Assembly: GCA_002798255.1 (NCBI GenBank)
Contig: NWQQ01000013.1
Location: 1 to 50,359 of the forward strand
Source of the DNA: Lysobacteraceae bacterium NML95-0200
GTDB lineage: Bacteria > Pseudomonadota > Gammaproteobacteria > Xanthomonadales > Xanthomonadaceae
Direction of reading: 5' to 3'
Length of the DNA: 50,359 nt
Numbering within the stretch: position 1 is the first letter of the stretch; the number at the start of each line of letters is the position of its first letter. The notes under the pieces were generated by a model. That model saw nothing but the letters and a program-made list of their open reading frames with translations, was not told the origin of the DNA and did no database searches. The position numbers and the translations under genes are program-made. Below are positions 35,927 to 50,359 of this stretch, piece by piece.

Positions 35927-38224
35927 TTGCGAAAAGTCTATTACGCACACTCGGCAGAAAACCTGCCCCAATCACACTGGCAGACCTTGTCAAGCCATCT
36001 TGTGCAAGTTGGCGAGATGGCCGCAGGGTTTGCCGCTTTTTTCGGCGCGCAGGAAATGGCGCGCTATACCGGCCAATTGCATGATTTGGGCAAATACACG
36101 CCGGAATTTAACCGCCGCTTGCATGGCGGCCCATCGGTCGACCATGCCACGGCGGGCGCAAAAATCGCTTTTGATCGCTGGGACGTGCAGGGCAGATTGA
36201 TGGCATTTTGCATCGCCGGTCATCACGCGGGTTTGGCCAATGGAGACGGCGAAGGCGACAACCGCCGCACCTTGACTCAACGCCTGGCCGTACCGTTCGG
36301 TACAGGCATCCACGATATTCCCAAGCTGGATGAGGTGTGGCGGCAGGAGATTCAGCTGCCTGAAAAATTGCCGATGCCGGGTGTCAAGTTTGGCGTTGCC
36401 GATTCTGCGGACAAATATGCCAAGTCCTTCAGCGTGGCTTTTTTCACCCGCATGCTGTATTCCTGTCTGGTCGATGCCGATTATCTCGACACCGAAGCCT
36501 TTTATGCGGGGCTGGAAGGCAAAACCGTGCAACGCGGCGGTCATCCCGATTTATTGCAACTACAGCAACGCTTTAACCGCTTTATCGCCGATTTCAGGCG
36601 GCTTGTCGCCGAAAAACCGCAGCAGACCGAAGAAGATAAGCGCAATGCCGCACTGAACCGCCTGCGCAGTGACATTCTCGATCATGCCGTGGCACAGGCT
36701 GCGCAAGAGAAAGGGTTGTTCACCCTGACCGTGCCCACCGGCGGCGGCAAAACCTTCACTTCGATGGCCTTCGCCCTCGAACATGCCAAGCGCCACGGCA
36801 TGCGCCGCGTGATTTACGTGATTCCCTTTACCAGCATCATCGAGCAAAACGCCGCCGAGTTCCGCAAGGCTTTTGGCGATTTGGGCAAGGATGCCGTGCT
36901 GGAGCACCACAGCACGTTTGACGACAGCAAACTCAAAGACCAGCACAGCAAAGACAAACTGCGGCAGGCTTCTGAAAACTGGGATATGCCCGTTATCGTG
37001 ACCACTGCCGTGCAGTTTTTCGAATCGCTGTTTGCCGACCGCTCCTCCCGCTGCCGCAAGCTGCACAATATATCCGGCAGCGTGATTATCCTCGACGAAG
37101 CACAAATGCTGCCACTCAAACTCTTGCTGCCCATCATGCAGGCCATCAAGGAGCTGGCGCGCAACTATCATTGCTCGGTAGTGATGTGTACCGCCACCCA
37201 ACCGGCTATCCAGGCCGAACACGGCTTTTATCGCGGCCTGGAAAACACCCGCGAGCTTGCCCCCAATCCGCCCGAACTGTTCGACAGACTGCGCCGCACT
37301 ACCGTGAAGCATATCGGTACCCAAACCGATGCCCAGCTGCTCGAAAAACTTGGGCAGCACCCGCAAATCCTCATCATCGTCAACAACCGCCGCCACGCCC
37401 GCAGCCTGTACGACAGCGCCAAACAGCTTGATGGCGTTTTCCACCTCACCACCCTGATGTGCGCTAAACACCGCAGCCAAGTGCTGGAAACCATCCGCGC
37501 CCGTCTGAAAAACGGCGAACCCTGCCGTGTGATTGCGACTTCTTTAATTGAAGCCGGTGTCGATGTGGACTTTCCCTTGGTCATGCGCGCCGAAGCCGGA
37601 TTGGACAGCATTGCCCAAGCCGCCGGACGCTGTAACCGCGAAGGCAAAAGGTTGCCCGAAGAAAGTTTCGTTTGGGTATTTGCGCCCGAAGCACGATGGA
37701 AAGCCCCGCCCGAGCTCGGCCTGCTGGCTGCCGCCATGCGCGAAGTCGTGCGCCACCACGCCGAGGATCTGCTCTCACCACAGGCCATCTGCCGCTACTT
37801 CCAATATGTTTACGCAGAAAAAGGCAAAGAGCTGGATGGCAAAGGCATTCTCGATATGCATAAGAAGGCAGGCAGCAGCTTCAACTTCCCCTTCCAAACC
37901 ATCGCCCGCGAATTCCGCATGATCGAAACCCATATGCAGCCGCTGATTATCCCGTTCGACCAAGAAGCCGAACGCCTGATCGACAGCCTGCGCCACGCCG
38001 ACCAAATCGGCGGACTACTGCGCAAGCTCCAGCCCTACACCGTGCAAGTGCCCGAGCGCGCCATGCGAGAGCTTCTCAAAGATGGCTGCATTGAGCCTGT
38101 CAATGAAAAGCGATTTGGCGCACAGTTCTATCGCCTGATTGGGCTAGATGGTCTGTACGACAAGGTGGCGGGCTTGAACTGGAAGAATTCAGAATTTTTG
38201 AAGTTAGAAGAATTGGTTTTTTGA
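35927..38224 (+). CDS. cas3: CRISPR-associated helicase-nuclease Cas3 (type I-C)
   Basis: Cleaves and unwinds DNA marked by Cascade (765 aa). The HD nuclease domain has His52-Asp53 (QLHDLGKYTPEF), Asp72-His73 (VDHATAG) and His99-His100 (AGHHAGL). The SF2 helicase has Walker A VPTGGGKTF (Lys275), motif II DEAQ (390-393), and motifs V/VI ATSLIEAGVDVDFP and QAAGRCNREGK. The start is TTG at 35927 with AGGGGA 8 nt upstream; it gives the expected VYYAHSAEN beginning and no nearby ATG does. It is first in the cassette. The next cas gene is unusually far (322 bp). Confidence 0.95.
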   Translation: MRKVYYAHSAENLPQSHWQTLSSHLVQVGEMAAGFAAFFGAQEMARYTGQLHDLGKYTPEFNRRLHGGPSVDHATAGAKIAFDRWDVQGRLMAFCIAGHHAGLANGDGEGDNRRTLTQRLAVPFGTGIHDIPKLDEVWRQEIQLPEKLPMPGVKFGVADSADKYAKSFSVAFFTRMLYSCLVDADYLDTEAFYAGLEGKTVQRGGHPDLLQLQQRFNRFIADFRRLVAEKPQQTEEDKRNAALNRLRSDILDHAVAQAAQEKGLFTLTVPTGGGKTFTSMAFALEHAKRHGMRRVIYVIPFTSIIEQNAAEFRKAFGDLGKDAVLEHHSTFDDSKLKDQHSKDKLRQASENWDMPVIVTTAVQFFESLFADRSSRCRKLHNISGSVIILDEAQMLPLKLLLPIMQAIKELARNYHCSVVMCTATQPAIQAEHGFYRGLENTRELAPNPPELFDRLRRTTVKHIGTQTDAQLLEKLGQHPQILIIVNNRRHARSLYDSAKQLDGVFHLTTLMCAKHRSQVLETIRARLKNGEPCRVIATSLIEAGVDVDFPLVMRAEAGLDSIAQAAGRCNREGKRLPEESFVWVFAPEARWKAPPELGLLAAAMREVVRHHAEDLLSPQAICRYFQYVYAEKGKELDGKGILDMHKKAGSSFNFPFQTIAREFRMIETHMQPLIIPFDQEAERLIDSLRHADQIGGLLRKLQPYTVQVPERAMRELLKDGCIEPVNEKRFGAQFYRLIGLDGLYDKVAGLNWKNSEFLKLEELVF

Positions 38225-38233
38225 AAATTTCCA

Positions 38234-38247
38234 TATCATTCATAGAA
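38234..38247 (-). promoter_or_regulatory. Predicted Cascade binding site for the crRNA-like RNA
   Basis: On the minus strand, TTC (38247-38245, the usual type I-C PAM) is followed by TATGAATGATA (38244-38234). The first 11 nt of the spacer-like segment at 38479 are TATGATTGATA. Positions 1-5 and 7-11 match and only position 6 differs, the base that type I crRNAs flip out and do not read. Beyond position 11 there is no meaningful match, so binding without full R-loop and without Cas3 cutting is expected. The PAM ends 1 bp before the -35 box at 38249. Confidence 0.7.
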
Positions 38248-38248
38248 G

Positions 38249-38276
38249 TTGATTTTTTGACTGAGCCGTCTACAAT
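38249..38276 (+). promoter_or_regulatory. Strong promoter between cas3 and cas5
   Basis: TTGATT (38249-38254) and TACAAT (38271-38276) with a 16-bp spacer. Transcription would start near 38283 and read through the small ORF and, lacking a terminator, into cas5. The Cascade site adjoins its -35, so bound Cascade should exclude RNA polymerase. Confidence 0.6.
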
Positions 38277-38308
38277 GATGCTATGGAAATTTCATGGTAG
38301 GGCGATAG

Positions 38309-38446
38309 GTGCGCAAAAAGGCAAAGTGGCTGCTTTGTGTCGGCAAGGTGGATGGTGGTTTCTGGCTATGGGTGAACCTTAGGAGCTTTAGGGCCTGTAT
38401 CTTTATGTTGGTTTTCTTGATTGGGCTATATGGTCAAATCTTTTAG
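38309..38446 (+). CDS. Small basic-hydrophobic ORF, candidate CreT-like toxin
   Basis: A GTG-started frame of 45 codons with GGTAGGG at 38296-38302 as ribosome site, 26 nt after the predicted transcription start. The product begins MRKKAKWLL, has aromatic residues (GGFWLWVNL), and ends with a hydrophobic segment, residues 29-45 (ACIFMLVFLIGLYGQIF). It has the look of small membrane-acting toxins. It also carries two AGG Arg codons at positions 25 and 28, likely rare here; the first known CreT is an RNA that sequesters a rare Arg tRNA. I recognise no homologue. Its placement between a Cascade-controlled promoter and the crRNA-like RNA is the main support. It could still be a chance ORF in a long leader. 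Confidence 0.45.
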   Translation: MRKKAKWLLCVGKVDGGFWLWVNLRSFRACIFMLVFLIGLYGQIF

Positions 38447-38449
38447 CCT

Positions 38450-38534
38450 GTGCTCCTTGCAGGGGAGTGTGTTGAAACTATGATTGATAGATTGAAGATG
38501 GTTGCACCCCTCTTTTGAGGGGTGAGTGTTAATC
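38450..38534 (+). ncRNA. crRNA-like RNA: degenerate repeat - short spacer - degenerate repeat (CreA-like)
   Basis: The first degenerate repeat (38450-38478) ends GTGTGTTGAAAC, 11 of 12 identical to the repeat tail GCGTGTTGAAAC, and is preceded by a CTCC/GGAG stem. With G-U pairs the stem becomes 8 bp with a 5-nt loop, as in the array repeat. The spacer-like segment (38479-38503) is 25 nt, shorter than the 33-39-nt array spacers. The second degenerate repeat (38504-38534) has an 8-bp stem CACCCCTC/GAGGGGTG, loop TTTT and tail AGTGTTAATC, like CGTGTTGAAAC. Cas5 of this locus could cut at both stems to release a guide. Its seed targets 38234-38247. A separate promoter is uncertain (TATATG at 38427 is a weak -10 candidate). 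Confidence 0.75.
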
Positions 38535-38546
38535 AAGGGAGATATG

Positions 38547-39218
38547 ATGAATAGGATCAAATTGCACATCTGGGGCGACTACGCCTGCTTTACCCGCCCG
38601 GAAATGAAAGTAGAGCGTGTCTCTTACGATGTGATGACGCCCTCGGCGGCGCGGGGGATTTTGGCGGCGGTGCATTGGAAGCCGGCGATTCGTTGGGTGA
38701 TCGACAAGATTCATGTGCTGAAGCCGATTCGTTTCGAGTCGGTGCGGCGCAATGAGCTGGGCAGCAAGATTTCGGCCAGCAAGGTCAGCGGGGCGATGCG
38801 GCGCAAGCGTGTGGAAGATTTGTATGCGCTGATTGAGGATGACCGCCAGCAGCGCGCGGCTACGGTGTTGAAAGACGTGGGCTATGTGATTGAAGCGCAT
38901 GCGGTGTTGACTGCACGGGCGGGTGAGGGCGAAACCATTGCCAAGCATATCGAAATGTTCAAACGTCGCGCTACAAAAGGGCAGTGTTTCCAGCAGCCTT
39001 GCATGGGTGTGCGCGAGTTTCCGGCGCATTTTGCGTGGGTGGATGAGGATTCACTGCCGGAGTCGGAGTTGCCTGAAAACGAGCGCGACCGTGATTTGGG
39101 CTGGATGCTGCACGATATTGATTTCGACGGCAGCAATCTGCCGCATTTCTTCCGTGCGGAGATGAAAAACGGGGTGGTTGAAGTACCGCCGTTCTTTACG
39201 GAGGAGGTGAAAAAATGA
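38547..39218 (+). CDS. cas5: Cas5 (Cas5c/Cas5d) pre-crRNA endoribonuclease
   Basis: A 223-aa RAMP protein. In type I-C, which lacks Cas6, it cuts the repeat RNA at the base of the hairpin and stays on the 5' handle in Cascade. Typical sequence: LHIWGDYACFTRPEMKVERVSYDVMTPSAARGILAAVHW and, near the C-terminus, DLGWMLHDIDF. The ATG at 38547 has AAGGGAG 5 nt upstream; the ATG at 38544 is too close to it. The leader contains the crRNA-like element, so Cas5 may process its own mRNA. It overlaps cas8c by 4 nt. Confidence 0.95.
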   Translation: MNRIKLHIWGDYACFTRPEMKVERVSYDVMTPSAARGILAAVHWKPAIRWVIDKIHVLKPIRFESVRRNELGSKISASKVSGAMRRKRVEDLYALIEDDRQQRAATVLKDVGYVIEAHAVLTARAGEGETIAKHIEMFKRRATKGQCFQQPCMGVREFPAHFAWVDEDSLPESELPENERDRDLGWMLHDIDFDGSNLPHFFRAEMKNGVVEVPPFFTEEVKK

Positions 39219-41104
39219 TTTTGACCTCTCTTGCGCGTTATTACCGCCGTTTGGCCACTGAAAACGATGTAGCGGGCAATCCGAAAGTACCGCCGTATGG
39301 TTTTAGTGAGGAAAAAATCGGCTGGGTGCTGGTGTTGGATGCAGATGGCCTGTTGGTGGATGTGGTGCCGCATCTGACGGATGAGAAAAAACCGCAGCCC
39401 CGCCTGATGAGTGTGCCGCGCCCTGAAAAGCGCACGTCGGGTGTGAAGTCCAATTTTTTGTGGGACAAAACCGCCTATGCGTTGGGCGTGGAGGCTAATA
39501 AAGACAAGGCTACTGCCAAAGAACAGCCGTTTGTGACGTGTGAAAAAACTTTTGCCGCTTTCCGCGAGCTGCATTTGGAATTGCTGAAAGAAACGCAGGA
39601 CGAAGGCTTGCTGGCCTTGCGCCGTTTTTTGGAGCGTTGGCAGCCCGAGCAGTTTGCCCATCCGCCGTGCCAGCCTGACATGTTGGATGCGAATGTGGTG
39701 TTCAGGCTGGACGGTACGCGCGGCTATATCCACCAGCGTGAAGCGGCTCAGGCATTGTGGGCCAATCGCTTGAAAAACGATGAGGCGGAGCAGGGCTTGT
39801 GTTTGATTAGCGGTGAGTCAGCACCGATTGCGCGATTGCATCCGGCGATCAAAGGCGTATTTGGCGGGCAGAGCTCGGGCGGCTCGATTATTTCGTTCAA
39901 TAAAGAATCGTTCACTTCTTTCGGCAAGGAGCAGGGCGCGAATGCGCCGGTTTCGGAAGTGTCTGCCTTTGCCTATACCACCGCACTCAATTACTTGTTG
40001 CGCCGCGAGAACGGCCATTGTCTCACCATTGGCGATGCCAGCACCGTTTTTTGGGCGGAGGCCGATACTCCCGAACAGGCCGCCGCTGCCGAAGCCTGTT
40101 TTGCTGATATGGCTGACCCGCCTGACGACGAGGAGGAAAACCAAAAAATCTTCAATATTTTGGAGCAAGTGGCCAAAGGCCGCCCGCTTCGGGAAATCGA
40201 TCCGAAGTTGGACGACCAAACCCGCTTTTACATTCTGGGCTTGGCGCCGAATGCTTCGCGCATTTCCATCCGCTTTTGGCATCAAAGCACATTTGGACAA
40301 TTGGCTGAAAATTTTGCAAAGTATCGGCGCGATTTGATACTTGAGCCTCCTGCATGGGGCGTTAAGCCCCCTTCCGTGTGGCGGATACTGCTTGAAACCA
40401 CGCCAAAGCGCAAAGGAGCGGATGGCCGTCTGAAAAAGTCCGACAGCAAGGACATACCGCCGCAGCTGGCAGGGGAATACATGCGCGCGATACTCACCGG
40501 AAGGCCATATCCTAAAACCATGCTGTCACGCATGATTGGGCGTATTCGTGCAGATGGGTATATTTCAGGATTGCGTATCGCGGTCATCAAAGGTGTTATT
40601 AATCGTAACGGCTTGTATAAAGAGGAGCTTAGTATGGGACTCAATGAAGAAACTCGGGATATTCCTTATCGCTTGGGGCGCTTGTTTGCCATTATCGAGT
40701 TGGCGCAATCGTCTGCGCTGGGTGAATTGAATGCTGGTGTGAGAGATAAGTTCTACGGTGGCGCATCCAGCTCGCCACATAGTACTTTCCCGCTATTGCT
40801 GGATAATTACCGTACGCATATCTCCAGCCTGAGAAAAGGGAAGAAGGCCAAGTGGGTAAAAGGGGATTCTAAAAAGTTGGCAAATTGGTTGGAAAGCAAA
40901 GTGGGAGAAATTGTTGGTGTTTTTGATGCCGAAACCCCGTTTCCTCGCCATTTGTCTTTAGAAGAGCAAGGGCGTTTTGTGGTTGGGTACTATCAGCAAA
41001 GGTTTAAGAAGTACAACAAGCAAGAAGATGCCAATACGCCTGAAGATATCGAACAAGCGAATCACCTGACTGACGAAACCGATTCGGAAGATGAAGAAAA
41101 CTAA
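39215..41104 (+). CDS. cas8c: Cas8c (Csd1), large subunit of type I-C Cascade
   Basis: A 629-aa PAM-recognising large subunit. The family pattern is seen in [96 protein letters not shown] and [13 protein letters not shown]. Length is near the usual 580-630. The start overlaps the cas5 stop (ATGA). An exact Neisseria uptake 10-mer lies within it at 40435-40444. In type I-C an internal start in cas8c also makes Cas11; candidates exist in the last third, but I cannot choose one. Confidence 0.95.
40435..40444 (+). other. Neisseria-type DNA uptake sequence (DUS) 1
   Basis: GCCGTCTGAA, the exact 10-mer DUS core of Neisseria, inside cas8c. The two preceding bases are TG, giving 11 of 12 matches to the AG-DUS dialect. 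Confidence 0.75.
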
Positions 41105-41115
41105 GGAGATACAAA

Positions 41116-41982
41116 ATGACTGCTATTCAAAACCGCTATGAATTCGTGTTTTTCTTCGATGTAACCAACGGCAACCCCAACGGCGACCCCGATGCAGGCA
41201 ATATGCCGCGCCTCGACCCCGAATCCAGCAAAGGCTTGGTAACCGATGTGTGCCTGAAGCGCAAAATTCGCAACTTTGTAGAGCTGGTCAACGAAAACCA
41301 AGCGGGCTATGAGATTTACGTGAAAGAAAAAAGCGTGCTCAATCTACAAAACAAGCGCGCTTATGAAGCCCTCGGTATCGAATCCGAAGCCAAAAAACTG
41401 CCCAAAGACGAAGCCAAAGCCCGCGACATCACCGCATGGATGTGCAAAAACTTCTTCGATATCCGTACCTTCGGCGCAGTGATGACCACCGAAGTCAACA
41501 GCGGCCAAGTGCGCGGCCCCGTACAGCTCGCCTTCGCCCAATCCATCGACCCCATCGTGCCGCTGGAAGTCTCCATTACCCGCATGGCCGTGACCAACGA
41601 AAAAGACCTCGAAAAAGAACGCACCATGGGGCGCAAATACATCGTGCCCTACGCACTCTACCGCGTGCACGGCTTCGTTTCCGCCAACCTTGCTGCCAAA
41701 ACCGGTTTCTCCGATGAAGACCTGCAACAGCTGTGGAATGCCTTGAAGCTTATGTTCGAACACGACCGATCCGCCGCCCGTGGAGAAATGGCCGCCCGCA
41801 AACTTATCGTCTTCAAACATGACAGCGCACTCGGCAACGAACCCGCCCATAAATTGTTTGAAGCTGTTAAAGTCAAGCGCATCCATGGGGAAAGCGGTAC
41901 GCCCGCCGCCGCATTCAGCGATTACGCTATCAGCGTGGATGAAGACGGGCTTAAGGGTGTAACCGTAGAAAAACTGCTGTAA
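41116..41982 (+). CDS. cas7: Cas7 (Csd2), Cascade backbone subunit
   Basis: A 288-aa RAMP backbone protein that coats the crRNA spacer. It begins with the family block [32 protein letters not shown], then [16 protein letters not shown], and has [13 protein letters not shown] and [22 protein letters not shown] at 41104-41107 gives a good ribosome site. It lies 11 bp after cas8c and 3 bp before cas4. Six or seven copies per Cascade are expected. Confidence 0.96.
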
Positions 41983-43989: not shown

Positions 43990-44178
43990 ATCGCTAATCT
44001 GTGGTTCTCATGAAAATATGGGCAGCTTAGCGATTTCTTCAAGCTCTTTGAAAACAGATGGTTAGAGGAGATAAGTGTGGCTGAAGAAGTTGCCTTACAC
44101 TTGCGGAATGTCTTTTGTGATGCTGTTAGCGAACCAGGATGCTTTAGGCCTTGTGCTGCTTAGGCTATACAAGAGGCC
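43990..44178 (+). promoter_or_regulatory. CRISPR leader
   Basis: The 189-bp A/T-richer stretch between cas2 and the first repeat. It should hold the array promoter and the integration signals. It opens with an inverted repeat (AATCGCTAA at 43989-43997, TTAGCGATT at 44027-44035) and a TTCAA...TTGAA palindrome at 44038-44052. No protein gene is convincing here. Confidence 0.75.
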
Positions 44179-47100
44179 GTGCCCGCCTCGCGCGGGCACG
44201 CGTGTTGAAACACCATGTTCGCGCAGGACGCGGAGAGCCGCCCTGCGTGCCCGCCTCGCGCGGGCACGCGTGTTGAAACTATGCCGCAATCCAGTACACA
44301 GGAGAGGGGTGGAGTGCCCGCCTCGCGCGGGCACGCGTGTTGAAACGACCACTGAGGACACCATGAACGTCATCCCCTTCGTGCCCGCCTCGCGCGGGCA
44401 CGCGTGTTGAAACCAAACGGATGGCTTGAGTTTGTCGATATACTCTCGTGCCCGCCTCGCGCGGGCACGCGTGTTGAAACAAGAATGATGATGGCGAGAA
44501 TGTAAGTTGGACGGGTGCCCGCCTCGCGCGGGCACGCGTGTTGAAACTTGGCGCTCAAATTCAGATGATGAATTTGAGAAAAGTGCCCGCCTCGCGCGGG
44601 CACGCGTGTTGAAACATCGCGATGGAGATGAGCGCATGAGTTATGTGACTGTGCCCGCCTCGCGCGGGCACGCGTGTTGAAACGTCCCGGCCGTGAGTCT
44701 GGCCAGCACCACGGCGGTGCCCGCCTCGCGCGGGCACGCGTGTTGAAACGCTGCCTGCCGGGGCGTTTGTCCCGGCCGTGAGGTGCCCGCCTCGCGCGGG
44801 CACGCGTGTTGAAACCGCTGGATGCTCTCCAGCCGCGAGGAGTTTGCCCGTGCCCGCCTCGCGCGGGCACGCGTGTTGAAACTGTGGATAGAGTGTGTGC
44901 TGCTGTGTTAACAACGTGCCCGCCTCGCGCGGGCACGCGTGTTGAAACGTGAAGAACATGGTCACCATTCTGGCCGAAGAACGTGCCCGCCTCGCGCGGG
45001 CACGCGTGTTGAAACCTTAGCTCATCAAGTAACGTGCATATTCGTCGATGTGCCCGCCTCGCGCGGGCACGCGTGTTGAAACGTATCCGCGCAACACACT
45101 GCGGCTGGCGGTGTCACGTGCCCGCCTCGCGCGGGCACGCGTGTTGAAACTTGTTAAGACCCATTTTACTGCCTGTTGAGTAGCGTGCCCGCCTCGCGCG
45201 GGCACGCGTGTTGAAACTACTTACTCCTGCCCATTGCGGGCTTTGTACCCGGGTGCCCGCCTCGCGCGGGCACGCGTGTTGAAACTGCTTTGCACATATC
45301 TTTAGATTTGTCAAGCAAAAGTGCCCGCCTCGCGCGGGCACGCGTGTTGAAACAATCAAACCGCGCAGGGTGCTGATGCCCTCACGGTGCCCGCCTCGCG
45401 CGGGCACGCGTGTTGAAACCGCTCTTTGACAAAGGCCATGAAGCTGAAGCCCTTGCCCGTGCCCGCCTCGCGCGGGCACGCGTGTTGAAACAGGCAGAAG
45501 CTGCAATATGCCCGCGATGTTCGGGGTGCCCGCCTCGCGCGGGCACGCGTGTTGAAACAATGGGTTGTAAGCGATGGTGCGCTTACTCAACAGTGCCCGC
45601 CTCGCGCGGGCACGCGTGTTGAAACGTCCAAATCGGCGACAGGCAGGCCATCACCGTATGTGCCCGCCTCGCGCGGGCACGCGTGTTGAAACCTGTTCAC
45701 GGCGCAAAAGATGTAAAAGTCGGCACGTGCCCGCCTCGCGCGGGCACGCGTGTTGAAACAGGATGGATACGGTGGCGCGGTCGGCAGCGGGGGGTGCCCG
45801 CCTCGCGCGGGCACGCGTGTTGAAACAATGGCAAGACGGACACGATATTGGCGCGTGTCCGGTGCCCGCCTCGCGCGGGCACGCGTGTTGAAACTCCTTA
45901 GCGGGTACGTTCGCCGCGCTGGACGGGAAGTGCCCGCCTCGCGCGGGCACGCGTGTTGAAACGGCAAAAACCGCTACTGGTGCGAGGCACTGCCGCGTGC
46001 CCGCCTCGCGCGGGCACGCGTGTTGAAACTCGCTGGCTGGCGACGATGAAGCGCCGGAGGCATGTGCCCGCCTCGCGCGGGCACGCGTGTTGAAACCTGT
46101 CTGTGCCCCGAGTCATTGCGGGGCAACTCCTGTGCCCGCCTCGCGCGGGCACGCGTGTTGAAACAACCGGAGCTGGCGCTGGCCGTAGCAGCAATGCCGT
46201 GCCCGCCTCGCGCGGGCACGCGTGTTGAAACGTCGCCGAGACGCCGATCGCACAGCCGGGGTTTGTGCCCGCCTCGCGCGGGCACGCGTGTTGAAACCGC
46301 GCTCATCTTCATTTCGAGCTGCGAAGCGTCGGTGCCCGCCTCGCGCGGGCACGCGTGTTGAAACGTTTACTTCAATTTGTGAAATGTTGGCGAGTGCGTG
46401 CCCGCCTCGCGCGGGCACGCGTGTTGAAACTCCAGCATCGGGAGGTGCTGGCCGAGCCGGATATGTGCCCGCCTCGCGCGGGCACGCGTGTTGAAACTAC
46501 TTGCCGCAAGGAAAAAAGCTACGCATCGCGCGTGCCCGCCTCGCGCGGGCACGCGTGTTGAAACCTCTTGATGCCGCCCGCGCCTGGACGCGGGCAGGTG
46601 CCCGCCTCGCGCGGGCACGCGTGTTGAAACGTTTTCCCGCCCTCAGTCGTGCGAGGGATGATGTGTGCCCGCCTCGCGCGGGCACGCGTGTTGAAACTTC
46701 TGATTGCGTTGGCAAGTGCTGATAGCGGCAGGTGCCCGCCTCGCGCGGGCACGCGTGTTGAAACCGGCGGCCACCGCATCATTGACAGCGGTTTCCACGT
46801 GCCCGCCTCGCGCGGGCACGCGTGTTGAAACCTGACTCCCGAGCTACAGGGATTGGAGTTCAAGCAGTGCCCGCCTCGCGCGGGCACGCGTGTTGAAACA
46901 CGCAATCAGCAGGGCGATGGCAATGAGGATGAGTGCCCGCCTCGCGCGGGCACGCGTGTTGAAACATCAAGAAAAGGTTGCAACCGGGCTTTTGATGACT
47001 CGTGCCCGCCTCGCGCGGGCACGCGTGTTGAAACAGCGGATGATTAACTCATCAGATAACGCGCGAATGTGCCCGCCTCGCGCGGGCACGCGTGTTGAAA

Positions 47101-50100
47101 CCAGCTGGTTGACCCAGCCTGCGGCGGGGGCTTCGGTGCCCGCCTCGCGCGGGCACGCGTGTTGAAACTCTTGCCGCAACAATGATGATGTATCGCGGCG
47201 GGGTGCCCGCCTCGCGCGGGCACGCGTGTTGAAACAGCACGAAAACGTAGCTGGCGATGTATGGCCAGCGTGCCCGCCTCGCGCGGGCACGCGTGTTGAA
47301 ACGCGTTTTGCGAGCGTACATTTTTGCCTATTGCGAACATGTGCCCGCCTCGCGCGGGCACGCGTGTTGAAACTGCGCCTGTCTTTGATGACAGGCCGGT
47401 ACAATCCGTGCCCGCCTCGCGCGGGCACGCGTGTTGAAACCCATCTTTGGATGCCTGCATTGCTACGGCTGGCCGGTGCCCGCCTCGCGCGGGCACGCGT
47501 GTTGAAACGGTATAACCGGCAAAGCATAACGGAGCGCCCCAAGTGCCCGCCTCGCGCGGGCACGCGTGTTGAAACGACTGGCAGAGCGGTTCGGTATTCG
47601 CTATCGGAGTGCCCGCCTCGCGCGGGCACGCGTGTTGAAACGACTGGCAGAGCGGTTCGGTATTCGCTATCGGAGTGCCCGCCTCGCGCGGGCACGCGTG
47701 TTGAAACTCAGGTCAAGTCGTAAGTGGACACATCAAAAGAACGTGCCCGCCTCGCGCGGGCACGCGTGTTGAAACTTGGGTGGGTACTCGGCTCCTGCGA
47801 TTGATCCAGTGTGCCCGCCTCGCGCGGGCACGCGTGTTGAAACTAGAGCGGGTTGGCCGGGGTCTGCAGCAGGGCAGTGCCCGCCTCGCGCGGGCACGCG
47901 TGTTGAAACTGATGTGACGATGGATGCGGTTAAATATCTTGAGGTGCCCGCCTCGCGCGGGCACGCGTGTTGAAACCCGCCCGCAATGCCGCGCCTAAAA
48001 GTAAGCCGAAGTGCCCGCCTCGCGCGGGCACGCGTGTTGAAACGGGGGGATGGTGTGCTGCCCGGTGTAGTTGAGCGGTGCCCGCCTCGCGCGGGTACGC
48101 GTGTTGAAACCTCCATGCGGTGCAAGAGGTAGCTGGAAATCGCCGGTGCCCGCCTCGCGCGGGCACGCGTGTTGAAACAGACAGTGCAAACCCCTGCAAA
48201 ACGTCGTTTTTTTGTGCCCGCCTCGCGCGGGCACGCGTGTTGAAACGCTGATGGCTGCCGGGATGCTGCAACTGTCCGAGGGTGCCCGCCTCGCGCGGGC
48301 ACGCGTGTTGAAACTTGGGCTTGTCTCTTGTGACCACACATTTTGCCGGTGCCCGCCTCGCGCGGGCACGCGTGTTGAAACAGGTCGGCATGGCGCTGCA
48401 CAGTACCGAAAGCCATGTGCCCGCCTCGCGCGGGCACGCGTGTTGAAACCCGATACCATCAACGCATCCCACGCCATCGCCTTCGTGCCCGCCTCGCGCG
48501 GGCACGCGTGTTGAAACTGCCTCTCGCGCTGGTACTGAGCGTAAAGCTGAGTGCCCGCCTCGCGCGGGCACGCGTGTTGAAACTTCGGCAGACTGTAAGC
48601 CTCATCTACTGTCCGATGTGCCCGCCTCGCGCGGGCACGCGTGTTGAAACAAAAATGACGATGGCGAGAATGTAAGTTGGACGGCCGTGCCCGCCTCGCG
48701 CGGGCACGCGTGTTGAAACATCAGCCCCTGCAACCCGGCAGGCGGTTGCGGCGGGTGCCCGCCTCGCGCGGGCACGCGTGTTGAAACCATCAAAATCAAA
48801 TAACACCCCTGAAGATTAAAGTGCCCGCCTCGCGCGGGCACGCGTGTTGAAACTGGTGGGCGCTCGGCGGGATGGGGGAGCGGCTGGGGTGCCCGCCTCG
48901 CGCGGGCACGCGTGTTGAAACTTTGCAGGGAAAGTTGACAAACAGATAGCTATCAGTGCCCGCCTCGCGCGGGCACGCGTGTTGAAACACTTGCATTGCT
49001 GATTTGCGACTCACTTCATGGTAGTGCCCGCCTCGCGCGGGCACGCGTGTTGAAACTGGCGTGCTCGGCGCGTTACCCGGCAGATTGCCCGTGCCCGCCT
49101 CGCGCGGGCACGCGTGTTGAAACCACAAATGAGGTGACGCTCACTCTCAGTAATCGGGTGCCCGCCTCGCGCGGGCACGCGTGTTGAAACCTGGCAAGAG
49201 CTGGAGCCCGAACCCAAAACCGAGGTGCCCGCCTCGCGCGGGCACGCGTGTTGAAACCGGTATACGCAAATTCATCTTCTGAAGTCGTCCGTGCCCGCCT
49301 CGCGCGGGCACGCGTGTTGAAACGATGAAATTACATGGGATTGAAATAATGGGATAAGTGCCCGCCTCGCGCGGGCACGCGTGTTGAAACGGCACCCAGC
49401 AGCGGTTGGCACCTGGGCGCGCTTGTGCCCGCCTCGCGCGGGCACGCGTGTTGAAACGCGCAGGCTATCCTAATCATATCGACGTGGTATGTGCCCGCCT
49501 CGCGCGGGCACGCGTGTTGAAACGCGGCATGGGATAGTTCGGCGTGGATTTGCAGCAGGTGCCCGCCTCGCGCGGGCACGCGTGTTGAAACGTCAAGCTG
49601 GAAGAATGGTTGATGGAGCTGCTGGAGTGCCCGCCTCGCGCGGGCACGCGTGTTGAAACTGCGCCTGTCTTTGATGACAGGCCGGTACAATCCGTGCCCG
49701 CCTCGCGCGGGCACGCGTGTTGAAACACCAACCCGCCGGCCAGCACAACCGTGGCTGGCGGTGCCCGCCTCGCGCGGGCACGCGTGTTGAAACGTTGGGC
49801 TCAATGATATAGGGCTGCGTGCCCTCTGTGCCCGCCTCGCGCGGGCACGCGTGTTGAAACTATACTGGCTTGCAGCTTTTGCGCCGCAGCCTTGGTGCCC
49901 GCCTCGCGCGGGCACGCGTGTTGAAACAGCGTGTTGCTGCGCCTGCCGGTCGAGCTGGTGAGTGCCCGCCTCGCGCGGGCACGCGTGTTGAAACGGCGGC
50001 GGCTTGATGTCCCAGGGCAAGCCTGACACGTGCCCGCCTCGCGCGGGCACGCGTGTTGAAACCGTCGTACTCTCGGGCAGGCCGAGTGCGGCCACGATGT

Positions 50101-50359
50101 GCCCGCCTCGCGCGGGCACGCGTGTTGAAACTCGCATTTGATGCAGAAGTCCATGCGCTGCTCCGGTGCCCGCCTCGCGCGGGCACGCGTGTTGAAACTC
50201 TCCCGTGGTGAACGGCAGGCACGCGAGGCCATGTGCCCGCCTCGCGCGGGCACGCGTGTTGAAACTCTCCCGTGGTGAACGGCAGGCACGCGAGGCCATG
50301 TGCCCGCCTCGCGCGGGCACGCGTGTTGAAACTCTCCCGTGGTGAACGGCAGGCACGCG
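44179..50359 (+). CRISPR. Type I-C CRISPR array, at least 92 repeats, truncated by window end
   Basis: I counted 92 full 33-nt repeats (first 44179-44211, last 50300-50332) and 91 complete spacers plus a partial one. Each repeat is stem GTGCCCGC, loop CTCGC, stem GCGGGCAC, then tail GCGTGTTGAAAC. Spacers are mostly 33-35 nt, up to 39. Repeats are nearly invariant; repeat 59 (48078-48110) has C to T in the second stem arm. Orientation follows the leader at 43990 and the GTTGAAAC 3' end, so transcription is rightward. Duplicate spacers occur at 47576/47642, 47374/49660 and 50199/50266/50333. Long reading frames across the array merely translate the repeats. Confidence 0.99.

Follow-up and report, generated by a model that had tools for sequence, protein, structure and literature searches.

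A predicted CreTA/CrePA-like control module between cas3 and cas5 of a type I-C CRISPR–Cas locus

CreTA, CrePA, CreR, and the CRISPR-suppressed immune systems (CRISIS) are already known kinds of control module in CRISPR–Cas loci. A related element was examined in the type I-C cas locus of a 50,359-nucleotide stretch of DNA from Lysobacteraceae bacterium NML95-0200 (contig NWQQ01000013.1; the whole stretch is called the window here), where the gap between cas3 and cas5 (38225–38546) holds a guide unit resembling a CRISPR RNA (crRNA), a site matching the guide, and a 45-aa open reading frame (ORF). This gap is probably a type I-C CreTA/CrePA-like control module, with Cascade and the guide repressing a cargo. 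Among the closest described systems, all cited here from partial texts of the reports, type I-F CreTA of Acinetobacter likewise lies in the gap between cas3 and the effector genes (cas3–csy1), is arranged as psiR1-psiS-psiR2, partially matches a site near a promoter flanked by a protospacer-adjacent motif (PAM), and contains a mini-ORF with a Shine-Dalgarno (SD) sequence (PMC10097628). In that system, the PAM is CC, creA is divergent from creT, and CreT is an RNA, whereas the window element is type I-C, uses TTC, runs on a single strand throughout, and has its guide in the cas5 leader. The Cascade-repressed toxin of the Citrobacter rodentium type I-E locus similarly combines a cas3–casA gap, a translated 96-bp ORF, and a crRNA-like RNA targeting the promoter, but has an ATG PAM, a guide upstream on the opposite strand, and demonstrated toxicity, while toxicity of the window peptide is only predicted (PMC12055562). 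Type I-B CreTA of Haloarcula also has degenerate repeats, an 11-bp seed beside a TTC PAM, and Cas3-free repression, as proposed for the window; it differs in lying between cas6 and cas8 and in its RNA toxin, which sequesters a tRNA (PMC8501985, PMC9458426, PMC12055562, PMC10097628).

The predicted behavior of the window module is also like that of CrePA, a protein toxin repressed by a CreA-guided effector and triggered by anti-CRISPRs, although the described toxin is a KilA-N protein acting on FtsZ and the hydrophobic 45-aa peptide encoded by the window ORF belongs to no known family (PMC12737573). CreR, too, is a mini-CRISPR whose complementarity to a cas-locus promoter is limited, but in the available portions of its reports it is described for types I-B, I-E, and V-A and its target is the cas promoter proper (PMC12737573, PMC13131331, PMC12948488). 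CRISIS, an embedded defense system (PMC12409349, in part), fits the cargo of several relatives of the window locus, in contrast to the window cargo, which contains no known defense gene. Among the literature matches listed, none was by its title or the start of its abstract a type I-C CreTA, CreR, CrePA, or CRISIS, a scope with preprints and most subscription papers outside it and no proof of absence; type I-C may already be within the CRISIS preprint (10.1101/2024.12.27.630466).

The original prediction of a repeat-guide-repeat unit was borne out by direct reading of the plus strand, where a degenerate repeat (psiR1, 38450–38478) is followed by a 25-nt guide segment (psiS, 38479–38503) and a second degenerate repeat (psiR2, 38504–38534), a creA-type arrangement within a type I cas locus. 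The 3′ handle of psiR1 is conserved, its last 11 nt (TGTGTTGAAAC) being identical to the handle of the array repeat (CGTGTTGAAAC) at 10 of 11 positions; psiR2 forms a perfect 8-bp stem (hairpin 38505–38524), and its tail has lost the terminal GAAAC. Over its first 11 bases, TATGATTGATA, psiS pairs with TATGAATGATA on the minus strand (38244–38234), with position 6 as the sole mismatch, such that all ten seed bases read by Cascade match, again as predicted. The target adjoins a TTC PAM (38247–38245, minus strand), TTC being a type I-C PAM (PMC8406640, in part) and the preferred flank across the loci described below. A promoter had been placed one base from this PAM; the spacing to TTGATT (38249–38254) held, but the promoter-like sequence that continues with TACAAT after 16 bases (38271–38276; whole element 38249–38276, plus strand) is weak, with 9 of 12 consensus bases. 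A PAM-flanked seed match by a nearby promoter is a CreTA feature, the promoter here being a consensus match only. When shuffled guides were scored against the 12 TTC sites of 38195–38449, 15/200,000 reached 10/10 at one or more of them, in keeping with the claim that a chance match is very unlikely, and the combined seed and PAM pattern, TTCTATGANTGATA, occurs in its own 2.38-Mb genome a single time, at the window target. In a sister genome (L017; L-numbers designate loci), the gap differs from that of the window at 4/322 bases and the flanking genes diverge more (140/2224 differences in cas3 and 29/672 in cas5), while the 85-nt guide unit has zero changes and the protospacer has one, at position 12. 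The type I effector does not read guide position 12, as seen in Cascade structures.

The pairing of guide and target was examined across type I-C loci located by their Cas5. Genome contigs were scanned for this protein, with the best 80 of 576 confirmed matches retained, and it was also searched for in 120 genomes of the window's relatives, in the families to which one Neisseria, one Rodentibacter, and one Cardiobacterium genome belong, and in sets drawn evenly across the class and across the phylum. L001–L003 and L016 were excluded, and shorter loci were replaced by longer stretches from the same place. Of 185 loci tabulated, cas3 was included for 156; the 29 without cas3 in the retrieved DNA (15 with the unit) did not enter the pairing test. 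A unit was called from a psiR1 handle and a downstream hairpin, with no hairpin demanded of psiR1 itself, and the 60 unit-bearing loci yielded 51 distinct guides, window included. Each guide was scored at positions 1–5 and 7–11 against every TTC-flanked site lying between −30 and +150 relative to the cas3 stop, with a threshold of at least 9/10. Thirty-four of 51 guides reached this threshold, 21 of them with 10/10, as compared to 0/2286 swapped guide and gap pairs with unlike seeds, 5/5100 shuffled guides, and 2/2550 decoy 24-mers taken from these loci on their cas5/cas8 side. Among all 64 trinucleotide flanks, TTC gave 34 matches and the runner-up, TTA, gave 4. Relaxing the flank to TTN raised the count to 41/51 (swapped pairs, 3/2286), corresponding to 18 of 22 seed clusters, 17 of them with TTC; a flank-free test lost power (42/51 versus 52/2286 swapped). 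The original prediction had held that a seed–target pair lacking conservation in related loci would speak against it, and the pair is conserved. Seven guides with seeds of 9–10/10 have a TTA (four) or TTT (three) flank instead of TTC (L097, L099, L100, L202, L209, L116, and L075), which perhaps lowers cleavage.

Matches at positions 1–5 and 7–11 are high by selection, and the informative positions are 6, 12, and beyond. At the 34 TTC sites, positions 6 and 12 each matched at a background rate of 0.24, which fits the prediction for a type I R-loop, whereas the unselected positions 13 and 14 matched at 0.82 and 0.79; rates then fell from 0.59 to 0.41 over positions 15–18 and were at background from position 19. 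Together with the seed and PAM match across loci, this signature supports the prediction of a guide that resembles a crRNA and targets a neighboring promoter. Of the 34 TTC sites, 28 are on the minus strand and 31 are located 8–55 bp after cas3. In 22/41 TTN loci, the best promoter-like match starts within −10 to +9 of the PAM edge (counted afterwards), and promoter scores near the sites are modestly above those of shuffles (at least 9/12 in 46% versus 23%).

Occurrence of the unit followed the size of the cas3–cas5 gap: it was found in 0/72 loci with a gap below 100 bp and in 60/84 with a longer gap, counts which contain duplicates from genomes reached twice. Among the evenly drawn loci, those of the class had a called unit in 5/21 (cas3 present for 19), one of which (L133) is considered a false call, and those of the phylum in 1/20 (cas3 present for 16). 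The psiR1 stem score was at least 5 in 34/51, compared with 20% of shuffles. Measured up to the psiR2 stem, guides have a median length of 27 nt, shorter than the array spacers implied by periods of 65–68 nt and repeats of about 32–33 nt. Where a host array was found (13/17 stretches), psiR1 matched the handle of its own host repeat at 9–10/11 positions in 12/13 and at 7/11 in L220/L113; with the match varying from 7 to 10/11, the psiR1 handle does not exactly track the host repeat. A plasmid search with 37600–39300 returned 16 records, none spanning 80% of the query.

Between the promoter-like site and psiR1 lies the 45-aa ORF (38309–38446, plus strand), a feature absent from the original prediction, which is preceded by a possible SD sequence (AGGG, 38299–38302) with the GTG start 6 nt downstream. 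Its best 17-residue Kyte-Doolittle mean is 2.24. The product is most likely a membrane-acting toxin, a prediction made solely on the basis of size, hydrophobicity, and position. Searches of Pfam, NCBIfam, and PADLOC gave zero matches, including to the KilA-N toxin of the described CrePA case, and PADLOC identified no defense system of the CRISIS kind in the ORF, a feature that some relatives do have. A search for phage homologs gave a best match at E = 0.3, to Vibrio phages, which was not accepted as homology.

Cargo in the corresponding slot of relatives ranges from membrane peptides and PDC-S16/DUF2188 proteins to Gabija, SIR2-HerA, Kiwa, type III restriction-modification pieces, and others. 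Small ORFs with an SD sequence and a hydrophobic stretch occupy the slot in the window, L043, L045, L052, L058, L080, L088, L091, L116, L126, and L179, and further small ORFs were recognized by eye in L051, L077, and L093. PDC-S16/DUF2188 cargo was identified in L021 and L023 by Pfam, in L021 also by PADLOC, and in L018 and L107 by sequence. Larger cargo includes Gabija GajA/GajB (L204), SIR2-HerA (L099 by PADLOC; L100 and L203 by blastp to L099, the L203 site being 8/10), Kiwa KwaA/KwaB (L216, and L211 by blastp), a PDC-M48B protein with a metallo-beta-lactamase domain (L202), PD-T4-4_A (L024), type III restriction-modification pieces (L097 and L104), NA37-domain sets (L103 and L209), and ORFs without clear family (L105 and L212). 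The pairs L099/L202, L024/L100, and L103/L160 share 23/24 guide bases, with no blastp match at E 0.001 between their cargo ORFs of at least 70 aa; the L097 and L204 guides share 21/24. Near-identical guides beside unrelated cargo support a slot in which lock and key persist and cargo is exchanged. We regard it as an even call whether many type I-C loci carry such a standard swappable slot, comprising a lock after the cas3 stop, any cargo, and a key in the cas5 leader, where the lock would read Cascade sufficiency and open upon Cascade inhibition. In L063, L084, and L090, the guide unit stands right after cas3 with HicA-like ORFs downstream (by eye); of these only L063 has a site of at least 9, and the L084 HicA-like ORF had no PADLOC match. 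The gaps of L065, L074, and L087 look strongly structured by eye and contain mini-ORFs, possibly RNA toxins.

In the module as proposed, the psiR1-psiS-psiR2 RNA would be crRNA-like, presumably cut by Cas5 and loaded into the Cas5-Cas8-Cas7 Cascade, which would be directed by the ten read seed bases and the TTC PAM to the site by the −35 element just after cas3. Matching ends after position 11 in the window (some relatives reach around 17–18), a length presumably insufficient for cutting by Cas3, and the bound complex may instead repress the cargo promoter, whose transcript would start with the 45-aa hydrophobic peptide. The guide lies in the cas5 leader, and guide and Cascade may consequently share one message. 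Loss of Cascade, or its block by an anti-CRISPR, would then allow the peptide to be produced.

Several observations weigh against this reading. Ten of 51 guides have no site of at least 9 near cas3 even under TTN (L218, L059, L133, L084, L090, L074, L051, L203, L101, and L029); we think L218, L059, and L133 are false detections of the unit, the best sites of L051 and L203 near cas3 are 8/10, and L101 and L029 have a 10/10 TTC site farther from cas3. Twenty-four of 84 long gaps lack a detected guide, and several of these contain defense-type cargo that is apparently not gated: GmrSD (L033 and L201), OLD-like proteins (L208 and L213), AAA_15 ATPases (L025 and L200), Thoeris (L027), and SIR2 (L207). 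Because guide-less gaps hold defense genes too, the slot appears to draw such genes generally, with only a part of them apparently gated. L210 has cargo, defense-type or unknown, in a cas3–cas5 gap without a detected unit. The window ORF starts with GTG behind a weak SD sequence and lacks any database match, and its peptide aligns weakly with the small ORFs of relatives (13–29% identity). The promoter does not outscore shuffles: TTGATT-16-TACAAT is the only promoter-like match in 38100–38600, where shuffles average 0.7, leaving the promoter itself weakly supported. Finally, the guide unit folds with z = −3.16, and its minimum free energy structure forms the psiR2 hairpin and pairs part of the guide with the psiR2 tail, so that the isolated strand is not simply two repeat hairpins and a free guide.

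The main rival is Cas autorepression of the CreR type, in which the target promoter would mainly feed cas5-cas8-cas7, the guide would provide feedback on Cascade level, and the ORF would be incidental. The promoter, ORF, guide, and cas5 share a strand, 38100–38600 contains no further consensus promoter, and psiR2 is within the cas5 leader. The target promoter, itself a consensus match, precedes the ORF and cas5 alike, and the same transcript could feed cas5 also. Six relatives resemble autorepressors, with no cargo gene between target and guide: L063, L068, L071, L137, L138, and L101 (Cricetibacter, same genome as L028), in which the 10/10 site is 3648 bp after cas3, past a DSR2-like gene and just before the guide. 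Autorepression fits poorly with the placement of 31/34 TTC sites 8–55 bp after cas3, several of them upstream of kilobases of cargo before cas5, with the site of L199 (TTT-flanked), up to about 11 kb from cas5, and with the absence of the unit from all 72 short-gap loci, although short gaps leave little room. The original prediction had offered a CreTA-like module or an autorepressor; the cargo ORF and the cargo of relatives favor the CreTA/CrePA-like side over the autorepressor, but some relatives resemble autorepressors, and we rate autorepression as a minority possibility for the window.

An alternative that we consider unlikely retains guided repression but makes the harmful product an RNA, as in classical CreT of the type VIII toxin–antitoxin kind, rather than the peptide. 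Known type I-B and I-F CreT toxins are RNAs (PMC12737573 and PMC10097628, partial texts), and L065, L074, and L087 by eye resemble structured RNA with mini-ORFs; against this, small ORFs with an SD sequence and hydrophobic stretch recur in the slot, and the type I-E CreT of C. rodentium needs translation (PMC12055562, in part). Far less plausible is that psiR2 serves only as a Cas5 cleavage site for posttranscriptional control in the cas5 leader, with guide matching secondary. The psiR2 hairpin directly precedes the cas5 SD sequence, but this leaves the match to the cas3-proximal site, with its seed, PAM, and position 6 and 12 pattern, unexplained. A decayed array remnant or chance match, to which the degeneracy of the repeats might point, was rejected on the swapped (0/2286 versus 34/51 for real pairs), shuffled, and decoy controls and is at odds with a guide unit unchanged in the sister genome; we assign it a negligible probability.

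A December 2025 review raises the question of whether coupling of the CreTA/CrePA kind extends to further CRISPR types and further cellular targets (PMC12737573, in part). The 51 distinct guides, the majority of which have a matching site, the position-resolved Cascade signature, and concrete cargo suggest that for type I-C the answer is yes. If the control module operates as proposed, inhibition of a type I-C Cascade would activate a second line, either a toxin or a whole defense system, a consequence relevant to anti-CRISPR biology and to type I-C systems employed as tools.

The window encodes a complete type I-C gene set by NCBIfam search (cas3, cas5c, cas8c, cas7, cas4, cas1c, and cas2). 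On the plus strand, cas3 (35927–38224; 765 aa, HD and helicase, TIGR01587/TIGR01596) is followed by cas5c (start at 38544 or 38547, end at 39218; TIGR01876), cas8c (39215–41104; TIGR01863), and cas7 (41116–41982; TIGR02589). Within 38535–38547, the likely cas5 SD sequence, AAGGGAG (38535–38541, plus strand, by eye), begins immediately 3′ of psiR2, and in several relatives the psiR2 tail merges into AAGGAG; given this abutment, Cas5 cleavage of psiR2 would shorten the cas5 leader. The CRISPR array of the locus occupies 44179–50359 on the plus strand, with 91 repeat copies counted in 44101–50300, and may extend past the window end. Within it, an identical pair of adjacent spacers is present at 47542–47707 (family D4).
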